NCBI GenBank assembly: GCA_005954745.1
Contig: CP040680.1
Coordinates: forward strand, 186,001 to 250,000
From: Halostella pelagica
GTDB taxonomy: Archaea; Halobacteriota; Halobacteria; Halobacteriales; Natronoarchaeaceae
Reading direction: 5' to 3'
DNA: 64,000 nucleotides
In this document: in pieces, positions 6,004 to 53,383 of the stretch
Position numbering within the stretch: position 1 is the stretch's first letter
Layout: each line of letters opens with the position of its first letter
Translations under genes and position numbers: made by a program
Notes under the pieces: model-generated
What the model was told of the DNA's origin: nothing
Databases searched by the model: none
What the model saw: the letters and a program-made list of their open reading frames with translations, nothing else

Positions 6004-6318
6004 ATGTCCTATTCTCCACCAGACCCACCTCGAGAAGTCCCAGCAGACATTGCTTCCAAGCTTGATGAGCAATCCCCGGAGGTACTCCGACAAGTCGCTC
6101 GATTCGCCGAGGAGCTTGCTGAGCATCGCGAGCGGGGGGCACGGCTAGCTGAAAACGAGGAGGAGAAGGAGGTCGAAGAGCGACCAGAGGATCTTCCTGA
6201 TGGCGTTCCGGCGAAGGCGACGATTAAGGAGATCAACGACAACCGCTACTACTGGCAGTGGCGAGAAGGAGAGAAGGTGCGTTCCCAGTATAAAGGTCCC
6301 GTCAGTCCCGATGAATAG
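6004..6318 (+). CDS. DUF6788-like small protein
   Basis: The protein is 104 residues, starting at ATG 6004 (MSYSPPDPPREVPADI). The upstream in-frame start at 5983 lies inside the palindrome arm and is unlikely. The N-terminal half is helical and acidic; the C-terminal half ends with ATIKEINDNRYYWQWREG and YKGPVSPDE, the pattern I associate with DUF6788 proteins of haloarchaea. Function unknown. Two decayed copies occur at 34215-34280 (start only) and 51430-51626, each again just downstream of the palindrome. Confidence 0.7.
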   Translation: MSYSPPDPPREVPADIASKLDEQSPEVLRQVARFAEELAEHRERGARLAENEEEKEVEERPEDLPDGVPAKATIKEINDNRYYWQWREGEKVRSQYKGPVSPDE

Positions 6319-6381
6319 ACGAAGGTGGACCGTAGCCGGGTGTTTGGGACAGCTCATTTAGCAGCATAGCAGAGGACACCC

Positions 6382-7353
6382 CACACCCCGCAGTGTGAAC
6401 GGGTCCAACCGACGCAGACTGATAAAACTCGGAGAGTGAAGATGCCCACTCTTACGTTTCCGACGTAACTCAATGTCGGTGGAGAGAATGAAGCCACGGT
6501 TGAGGAAATCACACCCCCCACGTTTCCGTCGTTTCGTGACCCGGTCCGGGTTGATAGTTGGAGGGGAGTACAAGGAAGCCTCGGATCACCCACCCCACGT
6601 TTCCGTCGTTTCTCCACGACATCCACATCCCAATGCAATGGCATTAACGACGAGAATATCATATATCACACCCCGTGTGCGATGTGAATTTGGTGATGGC
6701 GTTGAGTCAGTACCTCCCGTGTGCGAGATGATTTCGATCTCACCTCGAGGGAGGCCCCGTGTGAGAGATGAATTCACTGATGATTCGATGGGAGACACCC
6801 CGTGTGCGATATGAAATCTCGGAACGCCCATCGAACAGCCGTCGATGCCGAGGCAGTTCAGAGGAGCTAGCTGGAGGTACCCCCCGTGTGCAAGATGAAA
6901 AATCAGACGTAGTCTCTATCAGGATAGTACCGAACAAATTCCTTCGACAATCTCGTGTGGGACGAGATCTCGCCGGTAGGTCACCCCCACACCCCGTGTG
7001 CGATATGAATTTGACGAGAGGGTAGGTAGAAGTGAATCACTCGGGAAACGCGGGATTCAGCCAGAGAGTACACGAGAAGCCGTAGAACAGACGATGAAAT
7101 CCAACCTCGAGGTGGCAAAGGACCGGTCGTATCACGAAACGTACTGTTTCGTTTCGACCGGCTCCAGTTCTAGTGCGGCTTTGGTTGACAGAGTGGCTAT
7201 ATAAAGGTTCCCTCGAAGCATAGCTTATCTCGATATTGTTGTCCTTGCGTTCTCTTCTCCGTGATATCGTGGATTTCTGGTGTCTCGTGGACTCTCTTCC
7301 TCACCACTCCCTCCCGTCGTCTTCCTGATTTCATCTCGCACACGGGGTGTGGG
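6382..7353. other. ORB-like repeat cluster, candidate replication origin without adjacent initiator gene
   Basis: Within the 1.2-kb gap 6319-7518 a motif close to CACCCCGTGTGCGATATGAA recurs. Clear copies lie near 6667, 6712, 6752, 6795, 6879 and 6988, all in one orientation, with one inverted copy at 7328-7353. Two further units (near 6510 and 6588) read CCACGTTTCCGTCGTTTC. The form (CCCCGTG, then GA..TGAA) resembles the ORBs beside the Orc1/Cdc6 gene at 51923 but is a distinct family. The opposed copies bracket 7013-7327, which includes an AT-rich stretch near 7195-7235. No orc/cdc6 or rep gene is adjacent. No convincing protein gene lies in this gap. Confidence 0.6.
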
Positions 7354-7377
7354 GGTTCGGCCTTGTGGGGATCGTGG

Positions 7378-7419
7378 TTAACCAACAAATCCACTCCGAA
7401 CAACTGTTGTGTTGGTTAA
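7378..7419. repeat. dispersed palindrome, copy 4
   Basis: TTAACCAACA and TGTTGGTTAA lie 100 nt downstream (in minus-strand terms) of the stop of the gene at 7519, between it and the inverted ORB-like copy. Confidence 0.85.
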
Positions 7420-7518
7420 CCGTTCTCCGTGTTCACGAATGCCGTCAATTCCTACATCAACCTGCGAGTATCTCTTCAGCGGCCGAATCGGTAGGTGAGT
7501 TATCGAGGTTGAGCTGAA

Positions 7519-7815
7519 CTAGTCAATCCAGTAGACAGCAAGCGCTTTCAGGAAATTGTCGGCACAGTAGCGAATCCGGCACCGTATGCAGCAGCCTCGA
7601 TGAAGCTCGTGCAGACCCGGATCGATGAACACGCGTGCATCTTGGACTTGACTACGCGAGTAGACTGCGACGGCTTCTTCTCCACCGTTTTCACTTGCTG
7701 GGGTCTGGATATAAATTTCGATCATCTCGCCACGACTGAAGTACTCGCGAAGATCTCGCTGTTGTGCCTCACGATGAGCTCTTGCCTTAGATCCTCGGGT
7801 GGTACCTGTAGACAT
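7519..7815 (-). CDS. hypothetical protein, second gene of a two-gene unit
   Basis: A 98-residue protein starting MSTGTTRGSKARAHREAQQR at ATG 7815. It has a basic, helical N-terminus, an acidic middle (ENGGEEAVAVYSRSQVQDAR) and a cysteine-rich stretch (CCIRCRIRYC) near the end. No family recognised. It lies 28 nt downstream of the gene at 7844-8209 on the same strand, so the two are likely co-transcribed. Their place beside the ORB-like cluster could mean a plasmid maintenance role, but nothing in the sequence proves it. Confidence 0.5.
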   Translation of the reverse strand: MSTGTTRGSKARAHREAQQRDLREYFSRGEMIEIYIQTPASENGGEEAVAVYSRSQVQDARVFIDPGLHELHRGCCIRCRIRYCADNFLKALAVYWID

Positions 7816-7843
7816 AATTATGCTATTGGGCGTTGAGATGGCT

Positions 7844-8209
7844 CTAGTAAGCCTGTTCTATGGCCTCGAGATCCTCCTCGAACAGCTCTTGAGCTGACTT
7901 TCGGCCAGCCTTAGCAGCATATACATCTCGGACTTTACCTTGGACCGCCGAGAGCTTCTTACCGCTCTGTTCGGCGACTTTCTTCTGCGCGAACTTCCGC
8001 CGTCGTGATTCCCACCCCCTGATTTCGAACGCTAAGTACCACCGGGCAGTTTGCCGGATGTCAGTGAACTCAACTGATGCCTCTACAGGACGAAGGCCAT
8101 CAACCTGACTCACAAGTAATGTGGTCAAGAGGTTCTCATCTACCGCACGACAGTCCTCTTTGTCCGGTTCGTCCCACGGGTCGAAGTCTACGAGGTCGCC
8201 AAGTCCCAT
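7844..8209 (-). CDS. hypothetical protein, first gene of a two-gene unit
   Basis: The product has 121 residues from ATG 8209 (MGLGDLVDFDPWDEPDKEDC). A TATA-like TTTATA lies about 25 nt upstream on the minus strand (near 8231-8236), fitting a leaderless transcript and excluding the 10-codon-longer start at 8239. The N-terminal half is acidic; the C-terminal half is basic and helical (WESRRRKFAQKKVAEQSGKK). No known domain was recognised. The gene leads the unit with 7519-7815. Confidence 0.55.
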   Translation of the reverse strand: MGLGDLVDFDPWDEPDKEDCRAVDENLLTTLLVSQVDGLRPVEASVEFTDIRQTARWYLAFEIRGWESRRRKFAQKKVAEQSGKKLSAVQGKVRDVYAAKAGRKSAQELFEEDLEAIEQAY

Positions 8210-8404
8210 ATATACCCATTTGACGGGGTGTATAAACAACCCCCATGAGCGGCTTTACGTTTACTTGAGTCATTTTGAATGAAGCTGAGCGAAGAATTTT
8301 AATATTATTCCTCTTATGCCCGACTCCTCCAGCCAAGATGCCAAAATCTCAGAGTATGAGTCTTTTAGAGAGGATTCCAGCTCACAATATGTCTTTTCGA
8401 TTAT

Positions 8405-9955
8405 TTACCTCGAGTCTGTGTTCGTGTACGCCGTCAACTCCCGCACCTGCGTCTCCGTGAGTTCTCGACGAATCTCTGTCCGATCCCAGCCAAGCGGTGC
8501 CAGCAAACTCTCGACAGCTCTGACGAGTTGCATCTCGTAGTACGAGGTATCGTACGACTCGATCTCTTCGTGAGCCAACGCGACTCATTCTCGCGAGGTC
8601 TTCTCGTCATCGACGATCTCGTACTCGATGTCCTGTCCCGGGAGGACAGCGAGGTCCTGGTCTCGAGCCCGCTTTAGCGCCGCCACGTTATGGGTGTACT
8701 GCGTGTACGCCTCGACAGGCTTGGAAACACGGTTCCGTTCGACAAGTCGGTCAGGATCAACGTCGCCAGCGTGAAGCTCCGAAATCGCCCGTTTCAACCG
8801 ATTGATGACCCCATCCGGAGAGTGTGTTCGTCCGATAATCTCGAGACAGTCGTGCTGGATGTCTTTGATGAACTCGGGCGTGGACCGTTGTCGGGCTTCG
8901 ATGCTGCGTATCTTGAACTCATCCTCGCCCGCAATCTTCCCGAAATATTTCGTCAACGCGCCGGCGTCGCTCTCGTGCTGGGGCACGAACGCTACCCACT
9001 CGTACTCGGTTTCATATTCGAGACGTATCTCGACGGTGTCAGTGATTGCAGTGACCAACGACTCCAGTGATTCTCGTTTGCCGTCGGCAACGTCTGGATC
9101 TGGGGTCACCCAGATGGAGTCGACGATCCCGTGGACGACGCGCCAGCCGTCAGCTTCCGGCCGCTGCTTCGCCGTCAACAGAATCTCGCGAGCGAACACG
9201 TTGATTGCCTCGTGGCACTCGATGCGGCCAAACTTCGCGTTGCTGAACCCTTGATAGCCGAAGCAGGCGACGAGAATCCACTTCAGCGCTCCCGACCGCC
9301 CCTCGAGTTCCGCGAGTCTGTCTTCGTCGGGATCGTCCCGTTCCTTCTCGCGACGGATAGCCGCCTTGATCTCATCGCGAGCGTCGATGATCGGCTGTAG
9401 GATGTCGACGAGGTAGCCGCAGTCGTCGCAGATCGAGTATCCGAGCCCAGGAACGTCCTCGCGGTCGCTGTGGCAGTCACACCGGATGACGTCGGGTGAG
9501 ACATTCCGCGTACAGATGATATTCGGATACAACGAGGAGAAGTCGAGTTCGTGGAAGTTCTCGTGGAGGCCGACCTCGGGCGCGAAGATGAAGCCGCCAC
9601 GGTCGGCGTCGTGGAGCGTCCCCATCGGCTGGTAGAACTCGTGGCGCCAGAAGTTCCACGGGACGAGGACGCCGCGGTCGTGGGCCTCGCAGATCTGGAT
9701 CGCCGTGAGGACGTTCCCGATCGACGCCCACGCGAACTCCTGGACCGGCTTTTTCGAGCGCGACACGAGGTCGAGGACGCCGTCGAGGTTCGTCTCTCCG
9801 TAGAAGAATGTGTTCGACTCGTCGATGATCGCTCGGCCGGGCACGTTGTACCGCGCCGGCGAGTGACCGACGCGGCCGTAGCTCGAGTACGTCGACCGGC
9901 TCGCGAGCTGCTGGTAGTCGACGTCCGGCCACCGATTCAGCGAGAAGTCGTCGAC
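8405..9955 (-). pseudogene. truncated and frameshifted family-B DNA polymerase
   Basis: The minus strand from about 9955 encodes the palm and C-terminal parts of a family-B polymerase: motif A as LDFSSLYPNII, the motif-B region LKWILVACFGYQGFSNAKFG, and a deviating motif C, HGIVDSIWV, in place of the usual DTDS core. At 8585 the frame stops after DDEKTSRE, yet the next frame continues directly with VALAHEEIESYDTSYYEMQL and ends at 8405-8407, so a frameshift splits the end. The exonuclease domain and most of the N-terminus are missing; upstream of about 9955 the DNA belongs to an MFS fragment on the other strand. It therefore cannot be a working replicase. Confidence 0.8.
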
Positions 9956-10153
9956 GCCGGCTACGGCTTCGGCGCCATCCTCATCGGCGTGACCGCCGAC
10001 CTCATCTCGACGACCGCCGCGTTCTACGTCGTGGCCGCGGCGATGTTCGTCTCGGGCACCAACACGCTCGTCTGGATGCGAGAGACCCACCCCGAACTCA
10101 GGGCGAACGCGAGGGATGACCCGCAGGTGACGGCGCCGTCCCGCGACGGCTGA
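9950..10153 (+). pseudogene. 3' remnant of an MFS transporter gene
   Basis: From about 9950 the plus strand reads AGYGFGAILIGVTADLISTT then AAFYVVAAAMFVSGTNTLVW, the last two helices typical of a major-facilitator transporter, and ends with a polar tail at TGA 10151-10153. No start or earlier helices are present: the gene is cut at the junction with the truncated polymerase. The plus-strand open frame upstream of 9950 is only the antisense of the polymerase. Confidence 0.6.
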
Positions 10154-20146: not shown

Positions 20147-20189
20147 TTAACCAACATGACCCCATACGGTAGCAACCGATGTTGGTTAA
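20147..20189. repeat. dispersed palindrome, copy 5
   Basis: TTAACCAACA and TGTTGGTTAA flank an inner CGGT/ACCG stem, between two truncated plasmid-gene remnants. Confidence 0.85.
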
Positions 20190-31494: not shown

Positions 31495-34073
31495 GTCGCA
31501 AGGCGGTAGAAACCCACATCGGGATTGAAACACGAAGAAGCGTCTGGCGCTGCTCGGGGCTCCAGAACGTCGCAAGGCGGTAGAAACCCACATCGGGATT
31601 GAAACAGGATTGCTCGGTAGTCGTCGTCAGCCATTGCTGGCGGGTCGCAAGGCGGTAGAAACCCACATCGGGATTGAAACGACGAATCCGAACAGCAACT
31701 CCCGCGTCGCGATGTCGTCGCAAGGCGGTAGAAACCCACATCGGGATTGAAACAAGCAGACTCGCACTACTCGCTAGATTACTTCAAGGGTCGCAAGGCG
31801 GTAGAAACCCACATCGGGATTGAAACTTCGCGATTGTCTGGCGGTTGCTGCCGCGACCGTACCGGGTCGCAAGGCGGTAGAAACCCACATCGGGATTGAA
31901 ACATCTTGCAGACGGCGTACTCACCGGCCACGAGCGGTCGCAAGGCGGTAGAAACCCACATCGGGATTGAAACAGGAGTGTGGGGAACTCGTCCAGCGTG
32001 AACGCGGGTCGCAAGGCGGTAGAAACCCACATCGGGATTGAAACAATGTCCTCGTAGTCGAACAGTAGAGTTCCCGAACCTGTCGCAAGGCGGTAGAAAC
32101 CCACATCGGGATTGAAACATGACGGATGACGGCGACCCCGGACGAGTTCGTCGGCCAGTACGCCAGTCGCGCGTCGCAAGGCGGTAGAAACCCACATCGG
32201 GATTGAAACCCTGTCTCCGGGTCGATGTCGTGGCCGTTTATCATGTCGCAAGGCGGTAGAAACCCACATCGGGATTGAAACCGTGACGTGCTTGGCGACC
32301 GGGTGGGTGATCGCGATGGTCGCAAGGCGGTAGAAACCCACATCGGGATTGAAACGTCCCGTCCGGGCTTCGCGACCGGATCGACCAGGACCGTCGCAAG
32401 GCGGTAGAAACCCACATCGGGATTGAAACGCTACTCCGATGAGGCGCAAAAGAAGCTCTCCGACTTCTTCGACCCGGAAGCTGAGTCGCAAGGCGGTAGA
32501 AACCCACATCGGGATTGAAACATGCACGGGTATATTTCTGATAGGTTCGGAGGTTTCACTTCCGGTGTGGTCGCAAGGCGGTAGAAACCCACATCGGGAT
32601 TGAAACACGAACCGATACGTCAGAGAGGAGACCTCGATGCCAGGTCGCAAGGCGGTAGAAACCCACATCGGGATTGAAACACGGTGCAGAAGGTGTGTCG
32701 CGGCCTGTACGTCCGTTGTCGCAAGGCGGTAGAAACCCACATCGGGATTGAAACAGATCCTCAGCCATGATCAGTTTGCCTCCGTGGTCTCGTCGCAAGG
32801 CGGTAGAAACCCACATCGGGATTGAAACTGTCGGTGGCGACCGCTCCGACCAGTCCGACCACGTCGCAAGGCGGTAGAAACCCACATCGGGATTGAAACA
32901 AAGAGGAGACCGGATCAAAAACGAACTACTACGGCGTCGCAAGGCGGTAGAAACCCACATCGGGATTGAAACAAAGAGGAGACCGGATCAAAAACGAACT
33001 ACTACGGCGTCGCAAGGCGGTAGAAACCCACATCGGGATTGAAACACTTGCCCCCGGAGAGGTCGGTTGTCCCGTTGTCGAGTCGCAAGGCGGTAGAAAC
33101 CCACATCGGGATTGAAACGGGACCGCCCGTGTATCCTACCTTCACGACCCGACGGGTCGCAAGGCGGTAGAAACCCACATCGGGATTGAAACTGTAGCCT
33201 CGACCGTGAGAGACGGAGGGACGGGAGGTCGCAAGGCGGTAGAAACCCACATCGGGATTGAAACCTCGGATTCAGCAGCGGGACGACCGAGTGCGGGACT
33301 GACCGTCGCAAGGCGGTAGAAACCCACACCGGGATTGAAACCCGACGTCGACGAACTCGTCGGGACGTGGGCCGAGCGTCGCAAGGCGGTAGAAACCCAC
33401 ATCGGGATTGAAACTCTGCTCCCTGCCCCCACGTCTCGGCACCGTAGCCCTTGTCGCAAGGCGGTAGAAACCCACATCGGGATTGAAACCTTGTAGCGGG
33501 GACTCACTCTTTCGTCATGCTGGCCCGTCGCAAGGCGGTAGAAACCCACATCGGGATTGAAACGTTGATCTCTGTTCCATCGGGGTACCCGCGGAATAAG
33601 TCGCAAGGCGGTAGAAACCCACATCGGGATTGAAACACATCGGCGATCGCCTCAGTTTGGGTGCTACTCGTCGCAAGGCGGTAGAAACCCACATCGGGAT
33701 TGAAACCCTGCGCCGATAATTTACATCTACGGAGAGCCGGGGTCGCAAGGCGGTAGAAACCCACATCGGGATTGAAACCTCAAACGAGTACTCGCCGCTC
33801 AGGTCGTGGTCTTTAGTCGCAAGGCGGTAGAAACCCACATCGGGATTGAAACGGGAGTAATGACCGCCACGACCTACACTGACGACGAAGTCGCAAGGCG
33901 GTAGAAACCCACATCGGGATTGAAACTTCCATGTCTTCGGATTCGGCCAGTTGCATGGCGTTTTGTCGCGATGCGGTAGAAACCCACACCGGGATTGAAA
34001 CAAGCATTCGCTCCGGGCGGCGTCCCTGGAGATCCGGTCACGATGCAGTAGAAACCCAAACCGGGATTGAAAC
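31495..34073 (+). CRISPR. CRISPR array 2, 35 repeats of 37 bp, transcribed on the plus strand
   Basis: The repeat starts GTCGCAAGGCGGTAGAAACC and ends ATCGGGATTGAAAC. There are 35 copies from 31495 to 34037 and 34 spacers, mostly 33-40 nt. A cut-off repeat start (GTCGCAAGGCG) follows at 34100. Three spacers are long: 32119-32172 (54 nt), 32430-32484 (55 nt) and 32522-32569 (48 nt). One spacer-repeat unit is duplicated in tandem (spacers 32900-32935 and 32973-33008). Repeat 25 (33305) has CACACCG; the last two repeats (33965, 34037) carry the array 1 variant, the last with further mutations, as expected for the old end. Confidence 0.97.
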
Positions 34074-34159
34074 GCCGCGGCGACCGACTCGACGGCCTCG
34101 TCGCAAGGCGATATTTCGAGTAGTGTTACAGTGAGCAGGCACGAGAGTTGTCCATCGTC

Positions 34160-34200
34160 TTAACCAACAAATCTATAGATTAGCGGGGAATGTTGGTTAA
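34160..34200. repeat. dispersed palindrome, copy 6
   Basis: TTAACCAACA and TGTTGGTTAA flank an inner AATCTATAGATT stem. It lies directly beyond the trailer of array 2 and before a DUF6788-like start. Confidence 0.85.
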
Positions 34201-51388: not shown

Positions 51389-51429
51389 TTAACCAACAGA
51401 ACTGCGTTTTCAGCGGATGTGTTGGTTAA
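51389..51429. repeat. dispersed palindrome, copy 7
   Basis: TTAACCAACA and TGTTGGTTAA lie before a decayed DUF6788-like gene. Confidence 0.85.
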
Positions 51430-51665: not shown

Positions 51666-51784
51666 CACCCCGTGATCGAAGTGTAAATGGGCCTCACCCA
51701 CTATTCTTATCGGTGTCAACCGAAGATTTTCACTTCGATCACGGGGGGCGTGCAGGAGAGCGATTACACTTCGATCACGGGGGC
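51666..51784. other. ORB elements upstream of orc1 B
   Basis: CACCCCGTGATCGAAGTGTA at 51666 is opposed by TTCACTTCGATCACGGGGGG at 51729 and TTACACTTCGATCACGGGGG at 51764. Inverted G-rich units next to an initiator gene are standard haloarchaeal ORBs. The remaining gap 51198-51388 has nothing else. Confidence 0.8.
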
Positions 51785-51922
51785 TCGTCTCGTATAGACT
51801 TCGTTGTCGGTCGTATCCCGGAGAATAGGCAACTCGTGAATACGGGGGATAGCCTGGGCGTATTCCCCGGATAAACATCGACGGAGGTGAATCTTTTTAA
51901 CACTCCGGCGTGCAGAAAGCGT

Positions 51923-53383
51923 ATGACCGGTAGTGAGGAGGACGGGACGGGACAATCTACCTTCGACGAAGGGGTTCGTTCTAGAGTTGACGAAACACAG
52001 AGTGAAGCCGCTCGCAATGCAGTTGCCGGAGAGACTGATACAGATGCGGACGGAGAGACTGCTGAGGGCGGCACTCAACGGTCGATCCGTGATATGCTCG
52101 ACGACGAAGGGGAGGCGTCGGTGTTCATCAATCGTGATCTCGTCGAACCCGACACGATCATCGACGAGGAACGAATCGTCGGTCGCGACGACCAACTCGA
52201 ATCCGTCGTCTCGTTTCTGCGTCCGACGCTCCAAGGAAACCGTCCGCCGAATATGCTGCTGTACGGCCCCGCTGGGACGGGGAAATCCCTAATCATCGGA
52301 GCAGTCACGCAACAGATCATCGAACTCTATCAATCGAAAGGCGAGCGCTTCGGCGTGGTCGACGTTAATTGTCAGCCTATCAATACACTCGACCAGGCGG
52401 TGTACGAACTCGTCCAGACCGTCGCGACGGACGTCGATGCGAGGGTCGGAGTCCCCGAGACGGGCGTGTCCACGAAATGCAAGTATCGACGCCTGTACGA
52501 ACTCATCAACGAGCACTACGACTCGGTGATTTTCATCCTCGACGAGATCGACCTCCTGGTCGGCCGGCGAGCGAACGACGAACCCGCCTACTCGAAACTC
52601 CTGTACCAGCTATCGCGAGCGAGTAACACCAACGATATCGAAGGCCGCGTGTCGGTCGCAGCCCTGACGAACGACCCGAAGTTTATGGAAGATATCGACG
52701 GCCGTGCCGAGAGTTCGTTCAATCCGCGAGACGTCTACTTCCCCGACTACGATGCCACGCAACTGCGGGAAATTCTCGAGAATCGCCGAGACGCATTCCG
52801 TCGTGATGCGCTCGAAGACGACGTGATACCGCTCGTAGCGGCGTTTGCGGCACAGAGCCACGGCGACGCCCGGAAGGCGATCGACCTGTTCCGGGGCGCA
52901 GGCGATCTCGCCGACGATCGCCGTGATGGGAGAGTTACCGAAGATCACGTTCGGGAATCCCAGGAGGAAATCGACAAAGACCGGTCGCTGAAACTCGTAG
53001 AGGGATTGACGACGCAGAAAAAGATCTCGCTGTATGCGACAGCTGTCGTTGCCTGTCACTCGAACCGTTCCCGGAGTTCAGTTCCCAGTCCTGTCGGCTT
53101 CAAAGTCTATCAATGGGTGACCGATCAACTCGATGCTGACCAGATGACTCGCGAAACCTACGTCAAGTACGTCAAAGAGCTCTCCACGTACGGTCTCATC
53201 TCGACCTCCCGGAAGAGCCGAGGGCGTGGCGGCGGGATGTACATGGAATTTACGTTCACGGGCGATCCCGAAGCGATGATGGACCGGATAGTCGACGACA
53301 CCAGGTTAGAAGCGATAGCCAGTCAAGATGAACTCCTCCGGACCGTCGTTAACTCCCAACTGAAGGAGTTCCACGATCAATAA
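51923..53383 (+). CDS. orc1: Orc1/Cdc6 replication initiator B
   Basis: The protein has 486 residues from ATG 51923; CTTTTTAACA about 25-30 nt upstream is the likely TATA box, so the longer start at 51887 is not used. After an acidic, low-complexity start (1-60) come Walker A YGPAGTGKS (~114-122), Walker B SVIFILDEIDLLV (~201-213), sensor AALTNDP, the ORC lid with AAFAAQSHGDARKAIDLFRG, and a C-terminal winged helix (~390-486). ORB pairs lie on both sides (51666-51784 and 53617-53998). It should open the DNA at this second origin. Confidence 0.93.
   Translation: MTGSEEDGTGQSTFDEGVRSRVDETQSEAARNAVAGETDTDADGETAEGGTQRSIRDMLDDEGEASVFINRDLVEPDTIIDEERIVGRDDQLESVVSFLRPTLQGNRPPNMLLYGPAGTGKSLIIGAVTQQIIELYQSKGERFGVVDVNCQPINTLDQAVYELVQTVATDVDARVGVPETGVSTKCKYRRLYELINEHYDSVIFILDEIDLLVGRRANDEPAYSKLLYQLSRASNTNDIEGRVSVAALTNDPKFMEDIDGRAESSFNPRDVYFPDYDATQLREILENRRDAFRRDALEDDVIPLVAAFAAQSHGDARKAIDLFRGAGDLADDRRDGRVTEDHVRESQEEIDKDRSLKLVEGLTTQKKISLYATAVVACHSNRSRSSVPSPVGFKVYQWVTDQLDADQMTRETYVKYVKELSTYGLISTSRKSRGRGGGMYMEFTFTGDPEAMMDRIVDDTRLEAIASQDELLRTVVNSQLKEFHDQ

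Follow-up and report, generated by a model that had tools for sequence, protein, structure and literature searches.

The window, a 64,000-nucleotide stretch of Halostella pelagica contig CP040680.1, is located on a plasmid contig (C3) of 316 kb. Near its left end lies a cluster of seven repeat units, six on the + strand at 6668, 6712, 6752, 6795, 6879 and 6989 (spacings of 44, 40 and 43, then 84 and 110) and one inverted at about 7325-7350, which substantiates the cluster described in an earlier sequence-only reading. Five of the units match the 20-mer given there at up to 3 mismatches, with none in 100 shuffles, and the 315 bp at which it placed the inverted unit is close to the 320 nt that we measured between the arms of a facing ORB pair, these arms being 27 nt long and 96% complementary. 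An ORB matrix was compiled from 31 intact relatives (224 units), with L041, L054 and L060 omitted because they are duplicates or cut short. At a cut-off of 12 bits it returned exactly these seven units from the whole 64 kb (scores 29.4-41.4), and every one bears a run of C, i.e. a G-string on the opposite strand. The features discussed below are the following.

6379-6612, no strand assigned: array that apparently derives from the 3′ side of a different orc family, made of CGTTTCCG repeats and one CCCCGCAGTGTGAACGGG unit, 76-79% identical to blocks in plasmids
6668-6777, + strand: three ORB units of a presumed former 3′ array (downstream of orc); 6667/6668-6819 resembles (78-87%) the downstream array of L014, L015, L016 and L019
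6795-6820, + strand: hybrid ORB and probable deletion junction, where the left and right matches overlap; orc1/cdc6 (about 1.62 kb) is absent
6879-7014, + strand: two further origin-side ORB units (6879 and 6989), kept in an alignment of 18 origin regions
7010-7329, no strand assigned: origin core between the facing ORBs and presumed unwinding region by composition, with TATATAAAG near 7199, kept in relatives
7330-7356, - strand: inverted ORB with G-string, its 27-nt arm pairing with 6983-7009 (96%)
7376-7421, no strand assigned: paired element GGTTAACCAACA...TGTTGGTTAACC adjoining the inverted ORB, at the same place in most of the 18 aligned origins
8414-9961, - strand: truncated type B DNA polymerase gene (PF00136), N-terminal part absent and one nonsense codon near the C-terminus, matching residues 255-770 of the L019 polymerase (85%)
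51887-53383, + strand: nearest Orc1/Cdc6, 56% identical to the one presumably lost, with its own ORBs at 51668, 51727, 51763, 53436, 53621 and 53974

Within the core, where TATATAAAG is present, GC falls to 0.42 at 7200-7259, a modest dip similar to one at 6900-6959. At the left edge the ORB cluster stands, but a supposed variant unit at 6382 does not, because it belongs to the 6379-6612 block, which corresponds to the 3′ flank of a different orc family.

The CGTTTCCG repeats of this block are at 6447, 6513 and 6590. Similar blocks end 30-49 bp from the different orc gene in six of the six plasmids fetched, sitting there between a small conserved gene and that orc family. No copy of that family's ORB (CCCCNCGTCCAGAGTGAA) was found in the window at up to 3 mismatches. 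Because 6379-6612 resembles the flank of this other family, a second origin cassette may have been lost to the left of the array as well. In L014 (5554-6201), L019 (6527-7168), L097 (7558-7956, about 250 bp missing internally) and L124 (pNRC200, 2268-2915), an HNH endonuclease gene separates the small conserved gene from the orc cassette or what is left of it; it was recognized by PF01844 in the first three and by annotation in pNRC200. Its product may be a homing enzyme with a part in cassette exchange.

On the right, the 960 bp at 7453-8415 had a sole match in the plasmid collection, Salinibaculum litoreum plasmid CP046867.1. Judged by its likeness to the L019 gene, the broken polymerase gene beyond is the partner, from the same replicon module, of the orphan origin. 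Next to the inverted ORB, a paired site TTAACCAACA-N(21-23)-TGTTGGTTAA occupies 7378-7419; the genome holds seven copies, all on the window's plasmid, and those at 2699-2740, 20147-20189, 34160-34200 and 51389-51429 also fall in the window. The site occurs in 13 of the 14 related plasmid records searched (1-15 copies each); for this plasmid group it may serve as an operator or in partition. Nothing archaeal was among the matches listed in a literature search for TTAACCAACA.

A plasmid search identified haloarchaeal plasmids in which window-like sequence has an orc1/cdc6 gene on one side and a type B DNA polymerase gene on the other. In five relatives from five genera, window-type ORBs flank orc on both sides and polB lies beyond the origin in four; in Haloarcula pHH126, orc is present and no polymerase is listed. 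The cognate Orc family is 92-99% identical across the five genera, and the facing ORB pair is about 345 bp apart in the relatives' loci read. L019, from genome G003 of the window's genus, has four units 3′ of orc, three 5′ of it and one facing those three. On these sequence matches, we assign the seven repeats, as ORBs, to a defined family of haloarchaeal plasmid origins. An Orc of at least 80% identity accompanies 18 of 23 core-matching plasmid records; the five without it are CP046867.1, NZ_CP064790.1, the fragments L098 and L099, and L100, which represents the polymerase edge and not an ORB remnant.

The association extends to whole genomes. The cognate Orc is encoded in 66 of 391 Halobacteria genomes, and 65 of these 66 carry an exact ORB, compared to 15 of the 325 genomes lacking this Orc (Fisher p about 3 × 10−58). 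This disagrees with the case that the sequence-only reading had named against itself, a regulatory repeat upstream of unrelated genes; since the exact motif goes with the cognate Orc, we rejected a regulatory repeat unrelated to replication. Among the 391, the window's genome is the only one with at least three exact units in the absence of the cognate Orc. The Orc threshold (E ≤ 1e-180) may hide truncated genes, and the 14 further genomes with lone units and G000 were rechecked more loosely.

In the window's genome, no Orc of the cognate family was found; the best match is the 56% identical Orc about 45 kb away on the same plasmid, and relocation of the initiator within the genome was thus rejected. 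A viral origin was also rejected, as no exact match exists in the viral contigs. The window contains two other orc genes, each with ORB-like repeats of its own. The orphan ORBs differ from the repeats of both genes, as claimed previously: the orphan matrix finds just the seven units in 64 kb, and the ORBs that go with the 56% Orc stay under its 12-bit cut-off. Near the second orc gene, there is also a CRISPR-like array at 33400-34113 (repeat GTCGCAAGGCGGTAGAAACCCACATCGGGATTGAAAC, spacing 70-75 bp).

Compared with Orc1/Cdc6-associated haloarchaeal origins (PMC3528665), the locus has repeated G-string ORBs with an inverted pair (six direct, one inverted) and an ORB sequence that tracks one Orc family at an identity of at least 80%, with 3 of the 66 Orcs lower at 69-72%. 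A directly adjacent orc/cdc6 gene is lacking. Because no orc gene adjoins the window ORBs, we filed the locus as an initiator-less derivative of this class, not as a complete member.

Comparison with the relatives locates the missing gene. At 6795-6820 the window passes, within one ORB, from the array that lies 3′ of orc in relatives to the origin that lies 5′ of it. The left match (3′ array) ends at 6818/6819 and the right match (origin, to 7452) starts at 6795/6798, such that the overlap is one ORB. What is missing relative to the relatives amounts to about 1.62 kb, including the whole initiator gene. The window spacings equal the two unit groups of L019 joined together, with one unit replacing two L019 units that are 1620 bp apart. 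In the closest relative, Halobacterium L016 (89% over the origin once its core is turned round), the two junction units are likewise 1620 bp apart and are identical over 22 bp, and the flank switch of the window falls across that stretch. The breakpoint was read from relatives that are 82-92% identical and not from the immediate ancestor. A pattern for the exact deletion form of the window, run against all genome contigs, matched CP046867.1 alone.

These data support the earlier suggestion of a former replicon origin with a lost initiator, since the relatives hold orc exactly at the within-ORB junction of the window. We conclude, with a probability of roughly 0.87, that the window contains a replicon origin of the Orc1/Cdc6-type haloarchaeal plasmids, from which recombination between direct ORBs deleted the initiator gene and left a hybrid ORB. 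With ORBs on both sides, orc would lie between direct repeats, and recombination of a unit 3′ of orc with an origin unit 5′ of orc would remove it. This presumably occurred by homologous or microhomology recombination, with no site-specific enzyme. The plasmid would have survived the loss through another working origin, because other initiators were presumably present, and the orphan origin would now seldom or never fire, remaining inert unless a cognate Orc enters.

A second deletion was recovered through the plasmid collection. In the Halapricum desulfuricans HSR-Bgl plasmid NZ_CP064790.1 (L097), orc was lost via another pair of units, with breakpoints also inside an ORB: in coordinates of L014, the unit at 6456 was joined to the unit at 8189, which corresponds to a deletion of 1733 bp with a crossover within 17 bp. 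The 1733 bp are as measured in the sister strain HSR-Est, which is intact. L097 keeps a full-length polymerase gene and has another orc upstream. By these sequence comparisons, ORB-by-ORB excision of the initiator is recurrent and would have occurred at least twice in the window's origin family. In Haloarcula litorea NZ_CP119781.1 (L101), the orc adjoining the origin is split over two frames, and the plasmid has a second, intact copy at another place. Identical sets of the paired site at about 26-45 kb and 177-197 kb in L101 suggest a duplicated replicon region with one frameshifted and one intact orc copy.

The origin core, too, varies among relatives. Among 35 loci examined for core orientation, 23 have that of the window (including a duplicate record, L054 = L014, and L041, whose core is identical to that of L015), 5 are inverted and 7 are unreadable. 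The inverted cores, 5 of 28 readable, are those of L016, L044, L049, L055 and L059 relative to the orc side; for L059 the inversion is weakly supported (68 vs 31 bits), and plasmid-search hit H12 agrees. The core thus appears to flip in this family, which lends independent support to ORBs as recombination sites.

Besides the window's genome, 14 of the 391 have one or two exact ORB units and no cognate Orc. Most hold short remnants or bare units, and G327 alone retains a facing pair, its units 343 bp apart; the 18 kb read there hold no Orc beyond one of 28%. In G318 and G315 (contig C1 of each), single exact units are scattered along one contig away from an origin, those of G318 at 211617, 225547, 402986, 462441 and 3558336.

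A wider interpretation, which we offer tentatively and at somewhat less than even odds, is that ORBs on both sides of orc set control of the initiator against stability. Direct pairs would delete the initiator and the facing pair would flip the core, and plasmids with stacked cassettes would recurrently shed initiators, leaving ORBs behind as inert origins or decoys; the HNH endonuclease, whose gene adjoins the 3′ array in several relatives, could break DNA there. In the open-access full-text literature searched, we found no description of ORB-by-ORB deletion of orc or of core inversion.

We also considered whether the orphan origin is old and whether it is still used. Relative to L016, 3 of 76 ORB columns differ, compared to 68 of 580 elsewhere, and relative-rate tests showed no significant acceleration of the window origin versus relatives. 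The polymerase remnant has a dN/dS of 0.20 against L019, with values of 0.08-0.16 among intact polymerases. A long neutral age was rejected on the basis of these rate tests and of the dN/dS. An origin free of signs of decay fits either a recent loss or an array that is still used, for example as a decoy.

The latter case, in which the array is kept because it titrates the Orc brought in by plasmids of its own family and thereby serves passively in incompatibility or exclusion, is compatible with the deletion reading, and we regard it as doubtful. Seven good ORBs with no initiator would suit it, and an ORB-rich region downstream of cdc6E is described as repressing oriC2 in H. hispanica (PMC3936714), but most other orc-less remnants hold only one or two units, so retention of whole arrays is not apparent as a general pattern.

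An initiator encoded elsewhere was the other option of the sequence-only reading. Continued activity of the orphan origin, with the 56% Orc encoded at 51887-53383 on the same plasmid serving it in trans, is unlikely. The ORB of this Orc (CCCCGTGATCGAAGTGTAAA) shares CCCCGTGnnCGAnnTGnAA with the orphan ORB, in both origins ORBs flank orc (in the orphan ancestrally, as judged from its relatives) and two ORBs face each other at 320 and 333 nt, the orphan ORBs are not decaying, and Cdc6 proteins are reported to be able to act in trans (PMC3936714). Set against this are the sub-threshold scores of the ORBs of the 56% Orc on the orphan matrix and the specificity for their own Cdc6 described for H. 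hispanica origins in the same report (PMC3936714). In addition, four named organisms (Halorarius halobius, Haloarcula sp. CBA1115, Halolamina sp. CBA1230 and Halomicrobium urmianum) each carry the two Orc families on separate plasmids, which suggests compatibility.

Finally, an assembly or database error is very improbable: assemblers can collapse short direct repeats, but reads are usually longer than the repeat of 20-odd bp, the assembly has no cognate orc elsewhere, a like junction occurs in an unrelated assembly (L097), and window positions 6300-7500 are 100% identical to CP046867.1 (1201 bp, across the junction), although these two records may share reads.

Haloarchaeal origins and orc genes are many and mismatched in number, and the deletion that we propose for this locus would be a sequence-level route by which they separate: the initiator would be removed by the very repeats that it binds, with the origin remaining whole. 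Such orphan origins would be false positives in repeat-based origin prediction and might act as natural decoys in plasmid incompatibility. Already described are origin families with linked ORBs, ORBs flanking some cdc6 genes, dormant origins and insertion-broken origins (PMC3528665, PMC4595724, PMC3119063, PMC4441112). New here, as far as the searched literature shows, are the apparent recurrent excision of an initiator by its own ORBs and the apparently flipping core.

The closest known counterparts are the origins of Haloarcula hispanica N601 pHH126, Halomicrobium mukohataei NC_013201.1 and Haloquadratum walsbyi C23 NC_017457.1 (PL100), which resemble the window in ORB sequence, unit order and facing pair; polB adjoins the origin in several of these Orc1/Cdc6-associated plasmid origins. 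All three have an adjacent orc gene, unlike the window, and for PL100 two cdc6 genes preceded by ORB-like repeats have been described (PMC3119063).

In H. hispanica, as reported for three tested origins, autonomous replication did not occur without the origin's own cdc6, and the origin of cdc6E is held in check, probably through titration, by the ORB-rich region 3′ of that gene (PMC3936714). The relatives of the window likewise combine an ORB cluster 3′ of orc with a 5′ origin, as in oriC2-cdc6E/oriC2D. However, oriC2D belongs to another replicon and origin and has 11 downstream ORBs, and the titration that is probable there would apply to the window's family by analogy (PMC3936714).

The dormant oriC4-cdc6H and oriP1-cdc6L of Haloferax mediterranei are similar to the window origin in residing on a replicon with another, active origin. 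They are described as retaining their own cdc6, which can wake them once other origins are removed (PMC4595724), whereas the window origin has neither an intact adjacent cdc6 nor a cognate orc in its genome. In Haloarcula and Haloquadratum, an origin or cdc6 is similarly reported as lost or inactivated in one lineage, with a transposase or insertion as the agent in those accounts (PMC4441112, PMC3119063); at the window, the agent would be recombination between ORBs, which left the origin whole.
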